This document shows, in pieces, positions 256 to 10,822 of a stretch of DNA of 64,000 bases. Position 1 is the first letter of the stretch; the number at the start of each line of letters is the position of its first letter. The DNA lies in assembly GCA_016930595.1 (NCBI GenBank), contig JAFGGJ010000065.1, positions 1 through 64,000 on the forward strand, written 5' to 3'. The position numbers and the translations under genes were made by a program. The notes below the pieces were generated by a model. That model was given only the letters and a program-made list of their open reading frames with translations. It did no database searches and had not been told where the DNA came from. The stretch comes from Planctomycetota bacterium. Its GTDB lineage: Bacteria > Planctomycetota > SZUA-567 > JAFGGJ01.

Positions 256-1326
256 ATGAACGATCGCGAGCTGTGGCAGGAAATAATGAACTACGGGGAA
301 TTCGACCGGATGCCGGTGATACACTGGACCGGCTGGCCGGAAACTCACGAACGCTGGTACGCCGAAGGCATGCCCCGCGACGTGAACCACCACGAGTATT
401 TCAACGCGAAACCGTGGTCTGCCGGGGTAGGAGTGGACCTGGGCCTCATGCCGGCGTTCGAAGAGGAACTGCTGGAGGAAACCGACGAGTACAGGATATT
501 CCGCGCCAGCGACGGGGTGATACAGCAGGACTGGAAGCACAAGAGCTGCATACCGCATTTCATAGACTTTACGTTCAAGACGGCGAAGGACTGGGACAAC
601 TACAAGAAGCGGCTGCAGCCGGACCCTGCGCGCGTGCCCGCGGACATCGACGAGAGGATAGCGAAGGCCGAAGCGGCGGGGCTGCCGATATCGGTGCGGA
701 CCGCGTCGATGATGGGGTGGCTGAGGAACTGGATGGGCGTGGTGAACATGTCGTACCTGATGTACGACGCCCCGGACGTCTACGCGGACGTGGTGCAGAC
801 GCTGGCGGACCTGACCTGCTGGGGCATCGACCAGGTGGTGCCGAGGATGAAGACGGTGCCGGACATAGGATTCGGGTGGGAGGACATCTGCGGGAAGTCG
901 GGGCCGCTGGTGAGCCCGGAGATATTCCGGAAACACGTGGCGCCGGGATACCTGAAGATGCGGAGCAAGCTGGAGGAATACGGGATCAAGTTCCTGGGTC
1001 TCGACACCGACGGGTACGTCGAGCCGCTGCTGCAGGAGTGGATGGACGCCGGAGTGAACGTGCAGTTTCCGATAGAAATCGGGACGTGGGAAGCGGACCC
1101 GATGAAGCTGAGGAAGAAGTTCGGGAAGGAACTGCGGATAATAGGCGGACTGAACAAGCTGGAGCTGGAGAAGGGGCGGGAAGCCATAGACCGCGAGATA
1201 GAGAAGCGAGTGCCGCTGATGAAAGAGGGCGGATTCGTGGTGATGCCCGACCACCTGATAACGCCCGGCGTGCCGCTGGAGGACTACAAGTATTATCTCG
1301 AAAAGATAAGGACGCTGCGGTTCTGA
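256..1326 (+). CDS. Uroporphyrinogen decarboxylase (UroD/MtaA)-family protein
   Basis: A 356-residue TIM-barrel protein of the UroD-like superfamily, which includes haem-pathway UroD and many methyltransferase-type paralogues. Family-like segments are the N-terminal DRMPVIHW, a central GFGWEDICGKSGPLVSPEIF (about 205-225) and a C-terminal GGFVVMPDHLITPGVP (about 330-345). I start it at ATG 256 because GGGAGG sits eight bases upstream; an in-frame ATG at 193 lacks such a site. It leads a tight plus-strand group with a nucleoside transporter, an epimerase and a phosphoesterase, not haem genes, so a paralogous catabolic or methyl-transfer role is more likely than haem synthesis. The substrate cannot be read. 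Confidence 0.8.
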   Translation: MNDRELWQEIMNYGEFDRMPVIHWTGWPETHERWYAEGMPRDVNHHEYFNAKPWSAGVGVDLGLMPAFEEELLEETDEYRIFRASDGVIQQDWKHKSCIPHFIDFTFKTAKDWDNYKKRLQPDPARVPADIDERIAKAEAAGLPISVRTASMMGWLRNWMGVVNMSYLMYDAPDVYADVVQTLADLTCWGIDQVVPRMKTVPDIGFGWEDICGKSGPLVSPEIFRKHVAPGYLKMRSKLEEYGIKFLGLDTDGYVEPLLQEWMDAGVNVQFPIEIGTWEADPMKLRKKFGKELRIIGGLNKLELEKGREAIDREIEKRVPLMKEGGFVVMPDHLITPGVPLEDYKYYLEKIRTLRF

Positions 1327-1357
1327 GCGGCTGGCGCCGGAAGACGAAGGGGACGAG

Positions 1358-2560
1358 ATGTACAGGGCGGTAAGCTTTGCGGGGTATTTCGCGTTCGTGG
1401 CGCTGGCGTGGTGGATTTCTGAGGACAGGAGGAAGGTGCACTGGCGCGCGGTGACGTGGGGGACGGGACTGCAGTGGGCGCTGGGAGCGATAGTGATATG
1501 GCTGCCGCCCGGGAAGAAGCTGTTCGAGCTGCTGGGCGGGCTGGTGGACACGCTGATAAAGGCGTCGGACGAGGGAGCGGGGTTCGTGTTCGGGAGGCTG
1601 ACGTCGGAGTTCTGGACATTCGGGACGGCGGTGGGTTTCAGGGTGCTGCCGATAGTGGTGTTCGTGTCTGCGGCGGCGGGGCTGCTGCACCACTGGGGAA
1701 TAGTGCAGGCGGCCGTGCGGGGCATGGCGTGGCTGATGAAGAGGACGATGAGGATAAGCGGGCTGGAAGCGCTGGGTGCGGCGCTGTTCGTGTTTTTCGG
1801 GATAGAGACGGTGACGGGGATATCCGGGTACGTGAAGAAATCGACACGGTCGGAGATGTTCACGCTGATGACCGCGTTCATGGCGACGATAGCGGGATCG
1901 GTGCTGACGGCATACGTTTCGATGGGGATAGAGGCGAAGCACCTGCTGGCGGCGAGCCTGATGAGCGCGCCGGCGGCCATAATGACAGCGAAGCTGATGG
2001 TGCCGGAGAAGGAGGCGCCGGAGACGTCGTGGGAAGCGACGTACCGGCCGGAGATCACGAGCACGAGTTCCGTGGACGCGCTGTCACAGGGAGCGATGGC
2101 GGGGATGAAACTCGCCCTGAACATAGCGGCGTGCCTGATAGCGTTCGTGGGGGCGGTGAAGCTGGCGAACATGGGGCTGGAATGGGCGTTCGGCACGAGC
2201 GTGGAAAAGCTGCTGGGGTACGTCCTGAGCCCCGTGGCGCTGCTGATGGGAGTGCCGCTCGCGGACGCGATGAACGTCGGAGAGCTGCTGGGGATAAAGA
2301 CGGTGCTGAACGAGTTCCTGGCGTACGAGCGGATGACGGACATGGCGAACGCCGCGGACCTGTCGGAGCGCGGGAAGCTGATAGGGACGTACGCCCTGTG
2401 CGGGTTCGCCAATTTTGGAAGCATAGCGATACTGGTGGGCGGGATATCGACGATAGCGCCGGAGAGACGTTCGCAGGTGGCGGCGCTGGGGCTGAAGGCT
2501 CTTGCCGGAGGCACGCTGGCGGCGTTCCTGACGGCGTGCGTGGCGGGCACGCTGGGATAG
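1358..2560 (+). CDS. Concentrative nucleoside transporter (CNT/NupC family)
   Basis: A 400-residue polytopic inner-membrane protein, the usual length of NupC, which imports nucleosides coupled to H+ or Na+. Family landmarks are GIETVTGISGYVKKSTRSEM near residues 148-167, corresponding to the CNT substrate/Na+ motif, and CGFANFGSIAILVGGISTIA near 348-367, corresponding to the conserved FANF...GG..LAP segment. The first helices span about 1-60. The gene begins 31 bases after the UroD-like gene and precedes the epimerase by 48 bases, consistent with cotranscription. Ligand specificity (nucleoside or other) is not resolved. Confidence 0.9.
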   Translation: MYRAVSFAGYFAFVALAWWISEDRRKVHWRAVTWGTGLQWALGAIVIWLPPGKKLFELLGGLVDTLIKASDEGAGFVFGRLTSEFWTFGTAVGFRVLPIVVFVSAAAGLLHHWGIVQAAVRGMAWLMKRTMRISGLEALGAALFVFFGIETVTGISGYVKKSTRSEMFTLMTAFMATIAGSVLTAYVSMGIEAKHLLAASLMSAPAAIMTAKLMVPEKEAPETSWEATYRPEITSTSSVDALSQGAMAGMKLALNIAACLIAFVGAVKLANMGLEWAFGTSVEKLLGYVLSPVALLMGVPLADAMNVGELLGIKTVLNEFLAYERMTDMANAADLSERGKLIGTYALCGFANFGSIAILVGGISTIAPERRSQVAALGLKALAGGTLAAFLTACVAGTLG

Positions 2561-2608
2561 CCGGCGCGCGCCGGGCGCGGCAGCGGCACACCTGGAGAAG
2601 GGCGAGGC

Positions 2609-3853
2609 ATGAAAGACTACCTGGAAAAGACCGAGCGATACCTGCGGGAGAGGCTGATACCGTTCTGGGCGGAGCGTGCGGCGGAGCCGGCGTACGGGGG
2701 GTTCCAGACGAACTACGACAGGAACGGGAGGCGGACGGAGGTCACGGAAAAGACCCTGCTGTGCCAGGCGAGGTGCCTGTTCACCATATCGCACGCGGTG
2801 CGGCTGGGGTACGACTGGGAAGGCTGGGAGGAGGCGACGGGGCGGGGGATAGAATTCCTGCTGGGGCATTTCCGCGACGAGGAGTACGGGGGGTATTACT
2901 GGACAACGGAGGAAGACGGGAAGGCGAAGGACGAAGCGAAGGTGGTATACGGGCACGCGTTCCTGATATACGGGTTTTCGGAACACGCCCTGCTGACGGG
3001 GGAGCGGCGGTCGGCCGAGGAGGCGGCGGGCATATTCGAGCTGCTGCAGGAAAAGGCGGCGGATTCCGTGAACGGGGGGTACCACGAACATTTCGCCAGG
3101 GATTTCAGCCCGGCGTCGGTGCGGGAAGGGACGGGCCACAAGTCGCTGGACGTCCACATGCACCTGATGGAGGCGTTCACGACGCTGTACGAACTGACCG
3201 GGGAGGAAACGCACCGCCGCGCGCTGGAAGAAGTGACGGAACTGATATTCGGGAAGATGACGGACGGGAAGACGGGCGTCGGGATATCGATGTTCAGGCC
3301 GGACTGGACGCCGATAAGCAACGTGGAACTGGCGACGGTGTGGGGGTCGGACCGGTTCAACAGGGAAGGCAAGCCGCCCGACATAACTTCGTACGGGCAC
3401 AACATCGAACTGGCGTGGCTGTACCTGCATTCGCTGGGAGTGCTGGGGAAGGAAGCGCGCGAAGGAGAGGCCCGCGTGAAGCCGATATTCGAGCACACGC
3501 ACCGGCACGGCGTCGACTGGGAACACGGGGGGCTTTTCGTGGAGGGAAGGCGGGAGGGTGAGGCGACGGAGAGGAACAAGGAGTTCTGGCAGCAGGCCGA
3601 GGCGCTGGCGGGGTTCGGCGACGCCTACCTGCTGACGGGGGAAGAGAAATACCTGGAGGCGTTCCGGAACGTGCACGATTTCGTGTTCGGGAAGATGATC
3701 AGCCCGGAACAGGGGGAATGGTACCCGCTGCTGGGACGCGAGGGGAACATAATCTGGGACTACATGGGGCACAACTGGAAGACATGCTACCACACGGTGC
3801 GCGCGATGTGCGAGGCGACGGCGAGGCTGCGCAGGATAACGGGGACGCGTTGA
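2609..3853 (+). CDS. N-acylglucosamine/cellobiose 2-epimerase-family protein
   Basis: A 414-residue (alpha/alpha)6-barrel protein of the AGE family, which epimerises or isomerises the reducing-end sugar. Characteristic segments in order: EVTEKTLLCQARCLFTI (about 44-60), VVYGHAFLIYGFSEH (about 112-126), VHMHLMEAF (about 182-190), YGHNIELAWL (about 262-271), WQQAEALAGFG (about 330-340) and WKTCYHTVRAM near the C terminus. The histidines of GHNIE and CYHT (H395) match the two general acid/base histidines of the family. A purine-rich ribosome site (GGAGAAGGGCGAGG) precedes ATG. Native substrate (GlcNAc, mannose or cellobiose) is undetermined. Confidence 0.9.
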   Translation: MKDYLEKTERYLRERLIPFWAERAAEPAYGGFQTNYDRNGRRTEVTEKTLLCQARCLFTISHAVRLGYDWEGWEEATGRGIEFLLGHFRDEEYGGYYWTTEEDGKAKDEAKVVYGHAFLIYGFSEHALLTGERRSAEEAAGIFELLQEKAADSVNGGYHEHFARDFSPASVREGTGHKSLDVHMHLMEAFTTLYELTGEETHRRALEEVTELIFGKMTDGKTGVGISMFRPDWTPISNVELATVWGSDRFNREGKPPDITSYGHNIELAWLYLHSLGVLGKEAREGEARVKPIFEHTHRHGVDWEHGGLFVEGRREGEATERNKEFWQQAEALAGFGDAYLLTGEEKYLEAFRNVHDFVFGKMISPEQGEWYPLLGREGNIIWDYMGHNWKTCYHTVRAMCEATARLRRITGTR

Positions 3854-3904
3854 AGGGCGGGCGTCCGGCGGGTATAACCGGGAACGCAGGGAGGAGGGCC
3901 GAAG

Positions 3905-4948
3905 ATGGGAACCTTGAAGCGTGTATGCGTGTGCAGTATTCTGGTTGCAGCGGCGGCGGCGGCCGGCGAAACGCCGTACAGGAGCGGGACGGACTACAGC
4001 TTTGAGCCGCTGCTCGAGAAGGCGGTACGGAAAGCGGGGAAGAGCGGTCCGTTCAAGTTCGTGGTGATGAGCGACACGCACCTGGGGAGGAACGTCCCGT
4101 CGATCCTGGAGCTTACAGGAAAGCTGAAGCCGGACATGGTAGTCCACTGCGGAGACCGCGTGAACCGTGGATCCGGCGACATAGGCGAATGGCACCGGAT
4201 GGAAGAGCAGCTCGGACCGCTCGCCCGCATGCTGCCGTTCATTCCGGTAGAGGGCAACCATGAAGGTATGGGCGGACCGATGAAGACGGGAAGGCAGCGC
4301 TTCCTGAAGTTCTACGGGCTGGAGAAGGCGTATTATTATTTCGACGCGGCGAACTGCCGGTTCATCGTACTGTCGTGGGAGTTCAACGAGGACGATGAGC
4401 AGGTGGGGTGGCTGGAGAAAACGCTGCGGGGCGGAGCGGGAAAACACATCTTCGTATGCGTGCATACTCCGTTCTACACGGTGGGGCACAAGAGCGCGAG
4501 CGAGATTTCTAACAGGGACAATCGTTTTACGCGGATGTTCACCGGGCACGGGGTGACGATGGTGATATCCGGGCACGATCACACGTACTACCGGACCGAC
4601 AGGAACGGCGTCACGTACGTGGTGGCCGCCGGGGCAGGAGACGAGAAATACCCGCTGGAGAGGAAGGCCGAGGCGCAGGCCGGGGACGTATACATGGGAC
4701 AGATACCCGGCAGGGACGGGAAGTACGTGAGGCTCGACCCTGCAACGGGCCGGGAAGTGCCGGAGCCGGACGGGATGTTCGTACTGGAAGTGCTGGTGAA
4801 AGGAGCGCAGGTGGTCTGCCGGGCGGTGAACACGTCCGGGAAGGAATACGATCGTTTCGAGCCCGTGCGGCTGAGGAGGGGCGCCCGTCCGGCGGCGGAA
4901 CGGCCGCAGGAGAAGCTCACGGCGGCCCGCATCACCGCTGAGGATTAG
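3905..4948 (+). CDS. Secreted calcineurin-like metallophosphoesterase
   Basis: A 347-residue protein with a short N-terminal signal-like segment (residues 1-20, alanine-rich end) followed by a two-metal phosphoesterase domain. All five metal motifs are present: SDTHLG (about 57-62), HCGDR (about 79-83), EGNHEG (about 116-121), VCVHTPF (about 180-186) and SGHDHTYYR (about 220-228). It is therefore likely an active periplasmic or exported phosphatase or phosphodiesterase. The start is backed by GGGAGGAGGG upstream. It closes the first plus-strand cluster; the substrate cannot be deduced. Confidence 0.88.
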   Translation: MGTLKRVCVCSILVAAAAAAGETPYRSGTDYSFEPLLEKAVRKAGKSGPFKFVVMSDTHLGRNVPSILELTGKLKPDMVVHCGDRVNRGSGDIGEWHRMEEQLGPLARMLPFIPVEGNHEGMGGPMKTGRQRFLKFYGLEKAYYYFDAANCRFIVLSWEFNEDDEQVGWLEKTLRGGAGKHIFVCVHTPFYTVGHKSASEISNRDNRFTRMFTGHGVTMVISGHDHTYYRTDRNGVTYVVAAGAGDEKYPLERKAEAQAGDVYMGQIPGRDGKYVRLDPATGREVPEPDGMFVLEVLVKGAQVVCRAVNTSGKEYDRFEPVRLRRGARPAAERPQEKLTAARITAED

Positions 4949-4969
4949 CGGAGGTCCGGGCCGGGGAGG

Positions 4970-7345
4970 TCACGGGCCGGCGGGAGGCCTGGGGGGCGCG
5001 GGGACGCGTTCGTGCATGTGGGGGCGGGGGACCATTTCGTGCATATGGGGGGGGCGGGGCGCCATTTCGAAGGGGAGGGTGGAGCGGATGGCCGCCTTGA
5101 GGTCTTCGGGGCCGAAATAGAGGATGAAGCGCTTACCGAAGGCCTGCGGGACGGCGACAGTGCGCTGGAGCAACCTGGATACGATGGCTTCGGCGGTAGC
5201 TTCGTTGACCCCCGCGCCCGAAACGGAAGCTTCGGCGATACCGCCTTGAGCGTCGAGCCTGACGGCGATAGTGATACTGTCAACCTTCCACGAGATGAAT
5301 CCCGCGACATCCGGGAGGAGGTCCCTGGTAAAGACATCGTGGATGAGAGCCGGATCGCCGGTTTCGGGGGAGGGTTCCGGAGCGGGAGCAGGCTGCGGAG
5401 CGGCGGCGCGCAGTTCGGCGGCGGAAAAGGCCAGGCGGAAAGACTTGCCGAAGGCATCCGGATTGTCCGTGGTGAAGGACCTGGCGATAGCGGAGAGAGC
5501 GTCGCGGTCGGCGCCGGAAATACCGCCGGACAAGACATAGGCGTCTGAGGCCCTTCCGTCGCGATCGACGACGATGAGGACCTCGATATCCGAGGGTTGG
5601 ACGCGTGCGGCGATACGTGCAAGGAGCAGGCGCGAGAAATCATCGCGAAGCAGGGACTGGTCGCCGAAGGGAGGGCCGGAGTATTCCGGGGCCATTTCGC
5701 AGACGTGGGGAGGGATACAACCGGGTTCGGAGGCAACGATGGCGGCGACGAGGCCCGCTGCGGCGGCGGTCCTGCCGGCCCAACGTGCGAAGCCGCTGCG
5801 GCTGGAGCGGTCTGCAAAGGAGCGCACGTCGGAGAGAATCGCGGAGCCGCGGTCGTAGAGGAGGCGGTCATCTGCGGCGATACGTGCGGAGAAGCCGCGC
5901 AGGAAGGAGGAGCGAGCCGCCGGGCCGCGGAAGCCGGCTTTGACGGCGGCGACGAGTTCGTCAAGGTAGGCGCAGGTGTTCAGGTTGACGGCGGCGATGT
6001 AATCCTTGGTGCGGCGGCGAAGGGACCGGGAAGTGCCGAAGAAGTGGGAGAGGACCTGGTGCTCGTAGTCGACTTCCATGACTTTGTGGTGGACGCCGCG
6101 GTCGCCGTAGTTGCGTTGGCAGAAGGCCGTGTAGACGAGTTCGAAGAGGAGCTGTGCGCCGGGGTCGGCGATGAGGTAATCGTAGCCCCAGTAGTCGCCG
6201 ATGAGGCGGTTTTCGCGGCGGAGCTTAATTTCGAGGGGCGTGCCGGCATAGATTTCGGTACGGCAGAAGTTCATGGGGTTGTGCGGGCGGCGCTTGAGGA
6301 AAGCGACGTTGGCGGCGAAGTCGTCGAGGGTGGAATCGGGGTTGAGCATGAGGAGGTTGAAGCAGCAGTGGATATCGAGGAGGTTGACGACGTCGAGGGC
6401 GCGTTCGTTGTCGGAGAGGGACTGGCCGCGTCCCAGGCGCCGGAGGGATTCGGCCGTGCCGGCTTCGACGCCGAGAAAGACCCTGAAGAGGCCGATGGAC
6501 TTGAGGTAGGCGAAGAGGTCGCGGTCGACTTCGTCGGGGCGCGCCTTGATGGCGAAGGCGATGTCCGTGAGGCCGCGTGAAGCGAAGGCGGAGCCGAGAG
6601 AGCGTGCGCGGTCCCATGCGGCGGCGGGATCGCGCGGGAGGAAGTTGTCGTCGTGGAAGTTGAAGATGCGGGCGCCTTCATTGTAGAGAGCGGCCATTTC
6701 GTCGGCTACGGCGCCGGGGCGGCGCATGCGGAAGCGTTCGCCGCCGCAGAGTCTGTGCCACGCGGAGATGGAACAGAAGGCGCAGGAATGCGTGCAGCCC
6801 CGCGACGAAAGCATGTTGACGATGGGGAGGCCGAGATAGGTGTCGAAGGGACGGCGGTGTACGGCGAAGGGGCGGGAGTCGAGGTCGGCGGGTTTTTCCG
6901 CGGGAGCGTTGGTATGGACGCAGCCGGAAGCATCACGGTAGACGAGGCCTGGGACGGAGGGAAGGTCGTGAAGGGAGCGTGCGAGGCGGCACATGATTTC
7001 TTCGCCTTCGCCGAGTGCGACGGAATCGAAGGCGGGGACGTCGGAGAGGAGGGCCGCCGCGTTGAAGGCCGCGAAGTGACCGCCGGCCGTGAGATGGCCG
7101 GCGTAGCCGAGCTCGCGGGAGCGTGCGGCGAGGCGTGCGAATTCGGCGGCGCGGTAGGTGAAGACCATGGAGAAGCCCGCGAGGTCGGCGGAGGAGGAGG
7201 CGATGCGGCGAGCGGCATCTTCGGTATGGGCGGAATCGTTGAAGACGACAAGGGAGACGTGGTGGCCGGCGGCATCGAGGGCGGCCCAGATGGAGCGGAG
7301 GGCGAGGTTTTCTTCGAGTTCGGCGCCGACGAGGACGATGCGCAC
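4970..7345 (-). CDS. B12-binding radical SAM protein fused to membrane and TonB-C-like domains
   Basis: A 791-residue fusion. Residues 1-130 look like a cobalamin-binding domain, and 180-400 a radical SAM barrel with the cluster motif C184-x3-C188-x2-C191. A hydrophobic helix lies near 522-538. Two similar segments follow (about 585-645 and 687-750), each ending AFGK.F.L.F and resembling TonB C-terminal domains. CIPPHVCEMAP at 543-553 is echoed by PPHMHEMVP and RPHMHERVP at the extreme C terminus. The start is GTG 7345 with AGGAG six bases upstream. No obvious partner gene adjoins, so the reaction is unknown. The radical SAM call is firm; the TonB-like call is inference. Confidence 0.85.
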   Translation of the reverse strand: MRIVLVGAELEENLALRSIWAALDAAGHHVSLVVFNDSAHTEDAARRIASSSADLAGFSMVFTYRAAEFARLAARSRELGYAGHLTAGGHFAAFNAAALLSDVPAFDSVALGEGEEIMCRLARSLHDLPSVPGLVYRDASGCVHTNAPAEKPADLDSRPFAVHRRPFDTYLGLPIVNMLSSRGCTHSCAFCSISAWHRLCGGERFRMRRPGAVADEMAALYNEGARIFNFHDDNFLPRDPAAAWDRARSLGSAFASRGLTDIAFAIKARPDEVDRDLFAYLKSIGLFRVFLGVEAGTAESLRRLGRGQSLSDNERALDVVNLLDIHCCFNLLMLNPDSTLDDFAANVAFLKRRPHNPMNFCRTEIYAGTPLEIKLRRENRLIGDYWGYDYLIADPGAQLLFELVYTAFCQRNYGDRGVHHKVMEVDYEHQVLSHFFGTSRSLRRRTKDYIAAVNLNTCAYLDELVAAVKAGFRGPAARSSFLRGFSARIAADDRLLYDRGSAILSDVRSFADRSSRSGFARWAGRTAAAAGLVAAIVASEPGCIPPHVCEMAPEYSGPPFGDQSLLRDDFSRLLLARIAARVQPSDIEVLIVVDRDGRASDAYVLSGGISGADRDALSAIARSFTTDNPDAFGKSFRLAFSAAELRAAAPQPAPAPEPSPETGDPALIHDVFTRDLLPDVAGFISWKVDSITIAVRLDAQGGIAEASVSGAGVNEATAEAIVSRLLQRTVAVPQAFGKRFILYFGPEDLKAAIRSTLPFEMAPRPPHMHEMVPRPHMHERVPAPPRPPAGP

Positions 7346-7564: not shown

Positions 7565-8261
7565 GTTGTCGTAACCCCTCAATTCACGGTCGCCTGAAGC
7601 TGAATACGTGGAATGTGTGCGGTGTGGGAGGTTGTCGTAACCCCTCAATTCACGGTCGCCTGAAGCGGAATCTTGATTGGCTGTTCATGGTGTGGGGTTG
7701 TCGTAACCCCTCAATTCACGGTCGCCTGAAGCCGGGCGTATCTCCACGACAAGAGCCATGCAGTTGTCGTAACCCCTCAATTCACGGTCGCCTGAAGCGG
7801 GGGAAGCAACCGGCCATTCTCATACCATGTTGTCGTAACCCCTCAATTCACGGTCGCCTGAAGCAGTTGACCAGGACTATCTCCCCGACTGGTAGTTGTC
7901 GTAACCCCTCAATTCACGGTCGCCTGAAGCCCGTACGGCGGCTGCCACTTCCCGCGGCGGTTGTCGTAACCCCTCAATTCACGGTCGCCTGAAGCGGATA
8001 TATGGGTACGTGTTTATCCTCGCACGTTGTCGTAACCTCTCAATTCACGGTCGCCTGAAGCCGCCGACGCCAATCAGACCTACTTCAGGTTCGTTGTCGT
8101 AACCCCTCAATTCACGGTCGCCTGAAGCGTACTTACCCGCGTATATGACCGCGTATGGGGTTGTCGTAACCCCTCAATTCACGGTCGCCTGAAGCGCGAG
8201 GACGGCTGCGAAGTCTTTTCCAGCGGTTGTCGTAACCCCTCAATTCACGGTCGCCTGAAGC
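7565..8261 (-). CRISPR. Type V-G CRISPR array, 11 repeats and 10 spacers
   Basis: Eleven 36-bp repeats start at 7565, 7631, 7697, 7763, 7829, 7895, 7960, 8026, 8093, 8160 and 8226. On the plus strand they begin GTTGTCGTAACCCC and end GGTCGCCTGAAGC. All are identical by eye except the repeat at 8026, which reads CCTCT where the others read CCCCT. Spacers are 29-31 bases, mostly 30. The adjacent tracrRNA candidate and its promoter place transcription on the minus strand, so the processed repeat would begin GCTTCAGGCG and end TTACGACAAC next to the spacer. The leader then lies at 8262-8348 and the newest spacer is probably 8196-8225. Spacer targets cannot be searched here. Confidence 0.98.
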
Positions 8262-8348
8262 CCACCGGCTGCAACCTGTTGCGTCCTAATGGCTTAGGCC
8301 AAAAACCACAACAAAAAAATGGCCTAAACACCGCTTTTCACAGAGCAA
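8262..8348 (-). promoter_or_regulatory. Putative CRISPR leader
   Basis: An AT-rich stretch between the tracrRNA candidate and the array, unlike the GC-rich surroundings. It contains an 8-bp inverted repeat (TTAGGCCA at 8294-8301, TGGCCTAA at 8320-8327) whose loop is T-rich on the minus strand. This could be a leader signal, a weak terminator or processing structure after the tracrRNA, or both. A weak minus-strand promoter-like pair (TTGTTG, CATTAG) lies within it. Confidence 0.5.
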
Positions 8349-8489: not shown

Positions 8490-10784
8490 TCATTGGTCTG
8501 GAAGAACAATATCACCCCAGAAAACCCGGCCAAGCACCTTCGCCGCATTTTCATCGCAGTCCATTCGATTGTTGCATCCATCATATTCGCAAATGAAGCT
8601 GCCATTCCCCTTATTCGTGCGCCACAGGCGATGGTTCCCCTGTTTTCTGCCGCACTCAGAACAGGTCTGTGAAGAATAGAAGTAAGGTGTCGTCACAACA
8701 CGCATTCCACGCTCCACGGCCTTTTCCGTTACTTTGTGGCGCACACGCCCGTGCGCGTAAAAAGCGAGACGGCGTTTCTTGTCACTGTCATACTTGGCAA
8801 CTTTATCATATCCCGGCAACGGGAAGCCTCTCTGGCTTTCAAAAACGATAAGGTCGACATCGTTTTCTTCCGCTTTCTTGATTACCCGTGAAGCAACCAG
8901 CCGCGCCCAGTCGCGTATCATCCAACGTATATGCAGTGAGAAGCGCCGCATGTCATTCGGGCCGAGTTGCGGTTGGTCCCGGGTGTCCGTCCCTGAAGCA
9001 GGTTTCTTACCGGGGCTGCGTTTTTGGCTTATCTGCGACGCCTCAGCGGCCCAAGCCTCAAGATGTCTGCCTATATGGTCCTTTGTAAGGCCACTATACG
9101 GTTTTTTGTTACTGCCGGAACCGGATTTTTCATCTGGGAAAATGAGTTTGTCCAGTTTCAGCGTTTTCAGTTTTTCGCTCTTCTGAAATTGTCTGCCGTT
9201 AAACAGGGCAATCGCATTACCGACCTGGCCTGTATCGACGCACAGGATCTTGAGTTCCTTTTCCGGATCGCCGCTGAAGGATTCCAGCAACAGCTTGCGG
9301 GCCTCACGCAAGAAGGCATTGTCCTGACGCCATCGAGGATATTTACGGCTGCGCAGGTCAGCTATGTCATCCTGGCTGACGGCAAACCGTGATTGTTTAT
9401 GCTCGACTTTGAACCGGAATCCGACGCGGGCCCTTGAGCCGATGAAATGAATCTGAACGCTCGATATTTCAGCATTACCAGGCTGGATGTCATATTCCGG
9501 CGGCCAGGGATGAAAGCCGAACGGGATGAACTCGTCTGCCGCCATCGTATCCATGCGGAGCCTGAGAATGGAGTGTTTATAATCCACACCATAGTAATCC
9601 TTGCCAAATATTTTGGGGATAGAGAGGCGGCGCTTCGAGGGATAGGTGAAGGAAGGTTTTTTAGGCCCGGAGAGGAAATCCTTGCGCCACTCCCGGTAGA
9701 GCGAATCTAGTTCTTGCAGTCGCGGTTCACTTGAAAGCCGCGCCTTGTACAGCTTGCACTTTTCGGTGTGCTCATTGTACGGACAAGGTTCCTTATCATC
9801 ATTCTTTTGGGGGCAGTGCGGGAGGTCGCCATTGCCTTTTCTGGCAACAGTTCCTTCGGTAATACCCAGTGCCTGTAGATAATCAGCCCACCAAGTCTTT
9901 GAAAATTTGTGAGCTTGGGGTTCTTTTTTCAGAAGCAGTTCCATGAGCTTTTTTCGGTTGTTGTGCAAGTGGGGATTTTTCTGGCGGATAGCAAGGTACG
10001 TGCGAACATTCTCCTCGAAATACTTATTAGCTTCGCTGTTGGCCCGGAATTTGAGGTATTTCACACAAAGCTGAGCGTGGTTTTTTATGCGAAAACGTTC
10101 TCCATTATACAGGCAACCGGTATTGCCTTTCTGCAATTGTTCCCAGGTGCAAACCCGCGGATTTTTCCTGTCAACGCCAAGGTCTTTGAAAATACGGTTA
10201 AACTTGCTGATGGCATCTTCGGTCAGTTGCGGATGTTTTTTCTCCCATGCTTCCTTTTCTTTCAGCCATTCTTCCCTGCGCCTCTTCCAGTTTTCAAACG
10301 GCATGAGATAACGAGCAACTATAAGGTCTGCAGAAGCTTTGAGGAGCACCACAATATGCCTGTCATCATAACCGGCCACTCTCTTGAACAGATTGGTTGC
10401 AGTCTGTGTGGGAGGAATGCGCTTTACATGGTCTGTAGAAGAAACAACCTCGTCGGGCACATTACTTAACGCTTTTTCTGCATTTCCCAATCCTGCCGCG
10501 GATTTGAAAGCAGCCAGGCGAGTACGATCGACGAGTTTTTCGTCGTCGATGAATTGTTCCGGCTCGAGGAAGAAGCTCCAGAAAGGCTCCGTCTCTTTCC
10601 CTCTTTTGCCGTCCGGACGGAAACTCATAACCCACTGGCAAATTTCAGACACGTCCAGATTGAACTGTTCAAAATGCCTGCGGAGCTTGCGGACGTTTGA
10701 TTTGAACTCCAGCCTGCTTTGCCCATCAAGCCGACGGAGTCCTCTTACAAGCGTTCTTTCTTCGCGATATCTTGTTGCGGACAC
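8490..10784 (-). CDS. cas12g: Cas12g, type V-G RNA-guided effector nuclease
   Basis: 764 residues from GTG 10784, or 776 if read from GTG 10820. I recognise Cas12g from memory of Cas12g1: RYREERTLVR near the start, QFN.DVS..CQW...FRP, EISSV..HF.G.R.R.GFRF, IRDWARL, VTEKAVERGMRVVT and VLGRVFWG at the end. Numbering from GTG 10820, the RuvC triad is D529 (LCVDTG), E661 (LIVFESQRGF) and D756 (CDENAA), with a zinc ribbon C720, C723, C744 and C749. Characterised Cas12g is a tracrRNA-dependent RNA-targeting RNase with collateral RNA and ssDNA cutting. The 10784 start is preferred because GGGAAGG precedes it and a TATAAT lies only three bases before 10820. Base composition is less GC-rich and less skewed than that of its neighbours. 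Confidence 0.96.
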   Translation of the reverse strand: MSATRYREERTLVRGLRRLDGQSRLEFKSNVRKLRRHFEQFNLDVSEICQWVMSFRPDGKRGKETEPFWSFFLEPEQFIDDEKLVDRTRLAAFKSAAGLGNAEKALSNVPDEVVSSTDHVKRIPPTQTATNLFKRVAGYDDRHIVVLLKASADLIVARYLMPFENWKRRREEWLKEKEAWEKKHPQLTEDAISKFNRIFKDLGVDRKNPRVCTWEQLQKGNTGCLYNGERFRIKNHAQLCVKYLKFRANSEANKYFEENVRTYLAIRQKNPHLHNNRKKLMELLLKKEPQAHKFSKTWWADYLQALGITEGTVARKGNGDLPHCPQKNDDKEPCPYNEHTEKCKLYKARLSSEPRLQELDSLYREWRKDFLSGPKKPSFTYPSKRRLSIPKIFGKDYYGVDYKHSILRLRMDTMAADEFIPFGFHPWPPEYDIQPGNAEISSVQIHFIGSRARVGFRFKVEHKQSRFAVSQDDIADLRSRKYPRWRQDNAFLREARKLLLESFSGDPEKELKILCVDTGQVGNAIALFNGRQFQKSEKLKTLKLDKLIFPDEKSGSGSNKKPYSGLTKDHIGRHLEAWAAEASQISQKRSPGKKPASGTDTRDQPQLGPNDMRRFSLHIRWMIRDWARLVASRVIKKAEENDVDLIVFESQRGFPLPGYDKVAKYDSDKKRRLAFYAHGRVRHKVTEKAVERGMRVVTTPYFYSSQTCSECGRKQGNHRLWRTNKGNGSFICEYDGCNNRMDCDENAAKVLGRVFWGDIVLPDQ

Positions 10785-10822
10785 AGCAACCCTTCCCTGT
10801 TTGCGGCCCCTACTGCCCACAC

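Follow-up and report, generated by a model that had tools for sequence, protein, structure and literature searches.

The locus considered here raises the question of why an enzyme with a B12-binding domain and a radical SAM domain should continue into a C-terminal tail that contains a hydrophobic segment, TonB-like domains and several copies of a short Pro-rich motif. The gene lies in the window, by which we mean the whole stretch of DNA that was analyzed (64,000 nt of the Planctomycetota contig JAFGGJ010000065.1). The original prediction, made from the sequence alone, regarded this combination as unexpected and offered two readings of the motif, namely as a metal-binding site or as a peptide modified by the enzyme itself. 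The comparison with relatives described below suggests that the protein represents a previously undescribed enzyme family that modifies its own tail. It is likely, with room for doubt, that a cobalamin-dependent radical SAM enzyme here carries its own substrate and modifies an acidic-Pro motif in its own exported C-terminal tail. The wider proposal of a new and widespread self-modifying system, in which repeated acidic-Pro motifs are modified and the tail is exported via an internal lipoprotein signal and displayed outside in lineage-specific dialects, is put forward more tentatively, at somewhat short of an even chance.

Enzyme and tail of the window protein

The reading frame starts with GTG, with AGGAG located 5' of this codon, and its features are collected in Table 1. 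The B12-binding domain and the radical SAM cysteine cluster that had been claimed for the N-terminal half were borne out by the domain search: the PF02310 and PF04055 matches both exceed the gathering score, while all three cysteines of C184-x3-C188-x2-C191 are invariant across the aligned relatives (33/33). Pfam reported no domain in the 791-aa protein beyond these two. In the AlphaFold2 model, built from the alignment of relatives (mean pLDDT 84, pTM 0.70), the N-terminal 500 residues have as their nearest PDB structures in Foldseek OxsB (5ul3, E 2e-20), TsrM, MgmA, CysS, and TokK, with E values ranging from 2e-20 to 3e-13 and 16–19% identity. By its domains, cluster, and fold match the window protein has the architecture of a cobalamin-dependent radical SAM enzyme. 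None of the NCBIfam cut-offs was reached by the window enzyme (HpnR 96.6 vs. 650, BchE 79.6 vs. 481, ApyD 63.2 vs. 750 bits) and the same holds for the relatives of the split and distant clades described below, the best relative of the split enzyme L040 being ApyD (78 bits, cut-off 750). CUAEP scored 55 bits on the window protein (cut-off 500), and a literature search on an analogy with the CUAEP selenocysteine or tail gave no paper.

A basic, Trp-containing stretch precedes a hydrophobic segment (residues 530–544), which includes Cys543. A membrane helix had been placed at residues 522–538; the hydrophobic segment exists, but its position is slightly later. Compared to the lipobox consensus the E-P-G-C of the window is a poor lipobox, and the signal is internal. 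The two repeats that had been described were recovered as HMM hits, with AFGK.F in each. Their designation as TonB-C-like fits the predicted order of structural elements (H-E-E-H-E-H, as in TonB/TolA-C), but finds only a sub-threshold counterpart in the sequence, since NCBIfam tonB_Cterm scores 19.1 bits on the window tail (cut-off 27.1) and Pfam gives no tail match. Three motif copies had been recognized and were confirmed, while a fourth, LPFEMAP, had been missed. Shuffling of the sequence never reproduced the four E[MR][AV]P occurrences of the tail (0 of 20,000), and 16 similar 7-mer pairs were counted vs. at most 6 in 100 shuffles. The segments that contain the motifs (residues 529–566 and 756–791) are predicted to be disordered, and the model, with a pLDDT below 50 there, shows no docking of the motifs.

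Within the window genome, which is 82% complete, tblastn with the C-terminal half found the motif in the gene at 4970–7345 only. Likewise the DNA pattern PHMHE[MV], with up to two mismatches allowed, located the motif in this gene only, next to two other two-mismatch matches. The other B12/radical SAM matches in this genome are frames of 485–630 aa, indicating that the long tail is not a general property of such enzymes in this organism. The window also contains a CRISPR array (7565–8262; 11 repeats of 37 nt, spacing about 66) beside a gene for a 776-aa effector (8490–10820, minus strand) that matches Cas12g in PADLOC (E 5.5e-284); judged by these sequences, the two are a type V-G locus.

Table 1. 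Features of the window gene and of the motif proteins encoded near distant relatives.
Feature	Residues	Position	Strand	Basis or remarks
Whole gene, B12-binding radical SAM enzyme with motif-bearing export-type tail	791 aa	4970..7345	minus	
B12-binding domain	11-121	6983..7315	minus	Pfam PF02310, E 1.2e-12
Radical SAM core, cluster C184/C188/C191	180-345	6311..6808	minus	Pfam PF04055, E 9.1e-13; invariant Cys
Internal lipoprotein-like signal, FARWAGRT + hydrophobic stretch + Cys543	519-543	5717..5791	minus	hydropathy; 34 fused tails compared
Motif copy 1, PPHVCEMAP	545-553	5687..5713	minus	directly after Cys543; predicted disordered
TonB/TolA-C-like domain 1	566-648	5402..5650	minus	HMM hit; H-E-E-H-E-H in AlphaFold2; tonB_Cterm sub-threshold
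TonB/TolA-C-like domain 2	668-752	5090..5344	minus	HMM hit; AlphaFold2
Motif copy 2, LPFEMAP	757-763	5057..5077	minus	
Motif copy 3, PPHMHEMVP	765-773	5027..5053	minus	
Motif copy 4, RPHMHERVP	774-782	5000..5026	minus	
DPxP proteins of distant relatives		L091 861-1430; L092 1060-1386; L090 about 3131-3745 (-); L089 1018-1296		motifs DPPPDDF / DPAPDDW / DPVPDW / DPIPP

Fused and split relatives

A first search of 60 related genomes yielded two homologues with 58–59% identity to the window enzyme. A scan with the enzyme part over a collection of 84,980 species genomes gave 63 loci, of which 59 were used; L072 and L075–L077 (fragments or distant) are excluded from all counts, and L016/L017 are the same records as L002/L003. 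The genome collections searched consist largely of metagenome-assembled genomes. A motif tail is fused to the enzyme in 36 of the 59 loci (25 EMAP-type loci in the tree, L052, L057, and nine of the DPLP-type), so that the survey of homologues proposed with the original prediction provided 36 other fused relatives. Sixteen loci have a short non-membrane end. The rest comprises L017, a stand-alone enzyme among signal-peptide proteins, L066, which has neither a tail nor a gene for the EPAH protein introduced below, L022 and L034, where the contig stops within or before the tail, and three fragments. The origins of the loci include Myxococcota, Planctomycetota, Verrucomicrobiota, Geobacterales, Acidobacteriota, Nitrospinota, Candidatus Brocadia, and Methanoperedens/ANME-2; the fused form is found in Planctomycetota, Myxococcota, and Verrucomicrobiota and the split form in Geobacterales, Acidobacteriota, Brocadia, Nitrospinota, and Methanoperedens. 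The distribution of the family is patchy, with 9 of 392 Planctomycetota genomes positive at E <= 1e-60, four of which (L089–L092) are more distant.

The fused tails have a common layout. Behind the hydrophobic stretch, 6–24 residues from its start, 31 of 34 tails have a Cys, with the motif soon after; from the Cys content of the tails one would expect this placement in about 9% (L017, L022, L033, L034, L052, and L057 are omitted from this count). A frameshift or fusion artefact was rejected, as 34 fused tails from many genomes, that of the window included, show the same plan. Motif-like repetition exceeds that of 100 shuffles (P <= 0.02) in 29 of 35 tails (L017, L022, L033, L034, and L052 omitted), no significant repetition against these shuffles being seen in the tails of L016, L029, L032, L051, L058, and L069. 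Among 10 pairs of relatives there are 9 in which the motif positions are better conserved than the other tail positions, for instance 61% vs. 33% between the window and L016, the exception being the pair L018/L021 (82% vs. 84%). In many fused tails (e.g., L019, L030–L033, L035, and the DPLP clade) the motifs are kept and no TonB/TolA-like domain was confidently detected. The neighborhoods of the fused loci, judged by eye, contain no conserved neighbor gene and no conserved biosynthetic neighbors.

Homologues that lack the C-terminal half had been regarded as potential evidence against the original prediction. Such homologues exist, but they have the motif protein encoded next door, which argues for the prediction. 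For 15 of the 16 tail-less enzymes the downstream gene on the same strand encodes a protein with EPAH motifs, directly adjacent in 14 cases and one gene away in L038, while in the sixteenth locus (L043) the contig stops; in L060 the enzyme frame itself is frameshifted and the EPAH gene is still adjacent. The EPAH protein (230–310 aa) contains a TonB/TolA-like domain and 4–6 copies of E-P-x-H and starts without a hydrophobic segment. Three of its EPxH copies have an invariant E, P, and H in all 15 proteins that were aligned. Searching 47 locus genomes with the EPAH alignment (genome-sharing loci and fragments were not entered separately) gave 16 positives, which are exactly the 16 tail-less ones including that of L043, and none among the 31 others. 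Similarly, the protein occurs in 2 of 392 Planctomycetota genomes, the two with a tail-less enzyme. The AlphaFold2 model of the EPAH protein of L047 (mean pLDDT 71, motifs weakly predicted) has the same H-E-E-H-E-H order as the fused tails. Structural comparison of this split-protein model mainly points to C-terminal domains of the TolA/TonB type, which make up 23 of the 25 matches listed, with a best Z of 4.9 (TolA) that is no more than suggestive, and Foldseek gave no match for it below E 0.097. Homology between the fused and split domains is weak at the sequence level (E 8e-4 from a very small set; by hhalign, a probability of 13% and P 0.0022) and is counted only as support alongside the predicted fold.

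Other arrangements occur as well. In the Planctomycetota locus L014 (G002, JAKLDR010000198) the enzyme, 59% identical to that of the window, stands alone with 525 aa, and the product of the gene ending 9 bp upstream of it begins in the manner of a signal peptide and has THMKEMVAPDPRP as its C-terminal tail (motif THMKEMVAP). An in-frame TGA at this locus is the normal stop codon of the stand-alone enzyme. Around this enzyme (2352–3929) lie tandem signal-peptide paralogues (564–6561, minus strand) that have weakly HEAT-like middles, bear YGV(x)RPP-type motifs close to each of their two ends, and may be further substrates. In the distant loci L089–L092 a small protein with DPxP motifs is encoded upstream in four of four cases (Table 1), and by gene order this layout is a third arrangement beside the fused and split ones. 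Near the split pairs of L039 (8924–14274) and L060 (12891–14295) there are extra radical SAM-like genes together with ORFs of ~70–80 aa, in tandem in L039, and these small ORFs look like peptide precursors. The split pairs of L038 (11789–15981) and L041 (1–327, a fragment judged by eye) are adjoined by genes for a papain-like peptidase and a DUF900 hydrolase, the products of which could process the motif protein.

Motif dialects and the role of the tail

The motif differs between lineages. Across 99 EMAP-like instances the consensus reads T-H-x-x-E-M-A-P-x-P, another fused clade has YPPPPDPLPPP, in which His, Met, and Cys are absent, and the EPAH motif has neither Met nor Cys. Common to all dialects are only an acidic residue followed by Pro, Met, or Ala, and a nearby Pro or His. 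In a 56-row tree of the enzymes (omitting L022, L034, L052, L057, L060, L068, L070, and L071, which are fragments, contig-end cuts, near-copies or frameshifted) the EPAH enzymes form one supported clade, and the six substrate groups need five changes, which is the minimum, compared to an average of 26.6 for shuffled labels. Single Myxococcota genomes can contain several fused paralogues, with EMAP, EAAP, and DPLP dialects (L023/L031/L052/L074, L033/L057/L061, and others). An enzyme-blind search of 18 genomes with the DNA pattern [TS]-H-x-x-E-M-[AV]-P gave 16 matches vs. one for the reversed control. Fourteen of the 16 fall in fused genes of the enzyme family; for three of these (L100, L109, L113) the fetched stretch starts past the cluster cysteines and they were recognized by their tails as L020, L015, and L053. 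The remaining two lie in an unrelated enzyme gene (L099) and a glycosyltransferase-like gene (L107). Two new fused paralogues with THMCEMAP copies (L101 and L111, in the genomes of L018 and L033) were found by the DNA pattern alone. The DPLP pattern gave 21 matches in nine genomes (control 6), 18 of which are on contigs whose one inspected place is a fused gene.

Several other functions of the tail have to be weighed against self-modification. The order of membrane segment, Pro-rich stretch, and TonB/TolA-like domain resembles TonB, and together with the 19.1 bits for tonB_Cterm and the TolA/TonB matches of the split protein this would fit a membrane-anchored Pro-rich arm holding the enzyme at the envelope or at a transporter, with the motif as spacer or docking peptide. 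However, many fused tails keep their motifs though the domain is not confidently detected, the motifs occur on both sides of the domain and are better conserved than the spacers, and the EPAH protein has an invariant EPxH yet no hydrophobic start, which makes a tether unlikely, if still deserving consideration. The top NCBIfam scores, far under their cut-offs, are for HpnR and BchE, and an enzyme that acts on a small molecule or lipid like these relatives, with the motif protein as carrier, anchor or inhibitor, could be envisaged. Against this speak the lack of conserved biosynthetic neighbors around the fused loci, as judged by eye, and the combination of repeats, invariant residues, and clade dialects, which typifies modified core peptides rather than anchors, and we regard such a function as distinctly unlikely.

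The reading as a metal- or cofactor-binding or chaperone segment, in which His, Met, Cys, and Glu would supply or sense metal or cobalamin for the enzyme, draws on the abundance of His, Met, and Cys in the window copies and on the HMCEM of some relatives. Because these residues are not conserved across the dialects, with none of the three in DPLPPP and no Met or Cys in EPAH, the metal-binding half of the original prediction is weakly supported, and we consider it very unlikely. Finally, an internal translation start could yield a free lipoprotein, so that enzyme and substrate would be separate products of one gene. It is true that 37 of 40 tails have an in-frame GTG, ATG, or TTG before the hydrophobic stretch, and 6 of 40 a Shine-Dalgarno-like match, but a control region is similar (35/40 and 2/40) and the single candidate of the window scores 2 of 6; this explanation is hardly credible. 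For the other half of the original prediction, in which the enzyme itself modifies the motif peptide, strong comparative support comes from the fused and split relatives, as tail-less enzymes have the motif protein encoded next door, from the dialects that track the enzyme tree, and from the near confinement of the motifs to fused enzymes.

For self-modification, we infer that the motif is the substrate of the enzyme and that the internal signal exports the tail; by analogy with known enzymes the product is probably a C-methylation. The radical SAM domain would cleave SAM reductively and generate a carbon-centered radical on a motif residue, either the acidic one or a neighbor, after which a methyl group would most likely come from methylcobalamin, in the manner of ApyD, TsrM, or MgmA. 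The motif segments, flexible and predicted to be disordered, could enter the active site of their own chain or that of a partner subunit, and the TonB/TolA-like domain could act as a folded scaffold for recognition or as a spacer. Once modified, the tail would cross the membrane by means of the internal signal and be displayed on the cell exterior as a lipoprotein, perhaps with release by cleavage at the Cys. In the split systems of Geomonas, Brocadia, Methanoperedens, and others, a substrate of this type would be a separate neighboring protein. A point against self-modification is that a cytoplasmic Fe-S enzyme must act before export, yet the internal signal could export the tail first. Further points against it are the poor lipobox of the window, locus L066 with its lack of both tail and EPAH gene, the six tails in which repetition is not significant, the weak homology between the fused and split domains, and the AlphaFold2 model, which shows no docking of the motifs.

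A literature search that covered few subscription journals found no description of the fusion or of the EPAH protein. We know of no earlier radical SAM counterpart to the borosin precursors, which are fused and modify themselves, and the system, if real, would be the first. It would also connect radical chemistry on proteins with those that are exported or located at the surface instead of with small secreted peptides, and provide a function for a family outside Pfam and NCBIfam that is present in several bacterial phyla and in methane-oxidizing archaea. The motif dialects predict a substrate for each enzyme clade, and the split and fused versions offer two ready experimental systems, the split one in the named isolate Geomonas oryzae.

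Comparison with known systems

The nearest structures, OxsB, TsrM, MgmA, CysS, and TokK, share the fold of the N-terminal 500 residues at the low identity given above, and to our knowledge none of them has a motif-bearing fused tail. Proteins with a TonB/TolA C-terminal domain have the order of helices and strands that is predicted for the window tail domains and match the tail in sequence below the threshold, whereas the window domains, apart from missing the family cut-off, are duplicated, flanked by motifs, and fused to an enzyme. With the tested cut-offs missed, the system is by sequence not assignable to HpnR, BchE, ApyD, or TonB.

Closer in the proposed chemistry are two B12 radical SAM enzymes that act on ribosomal peptides: ApyD, which catalyzes C-beta methylation of Tyr (PMC10635010), and PbsB, which forms a C-C cross-link (PMC12257519). 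As proposed here for the window enzyme, each of them is a cobalamin radical SAM enzyme with a short motif in a ribosomal peptide as its target. However, they have separate short precursors, an RRE domain, and multi-enzyme clusters, whereas the substrate here would be fused, the motif is not aromatic, and there is no such cluster. In gene arrangement the borosins come nearest, with a methyltransferase that is fused to its precursor in types I–III and split from it in type IV (PMC8429565). Like here, enzyme and core are found in one chain (OphMA) or in separate genes (SonM/SonA, type IV), and the borosin precursor is described as autocatalytic (PMC8429565). In the window protein, too, the enzyme and presumed core share one frame and have split relatives. 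The borosin enzyme is an ordinary SAM alpha-N-methyltransferase, in contrast to the cobalamin radical SAM enzyme of the window, whose tail additionally carries a putative signal for export and multiple copies of the motif round a folded domain. By this analogy the system may work like a borosin, but it is not one.
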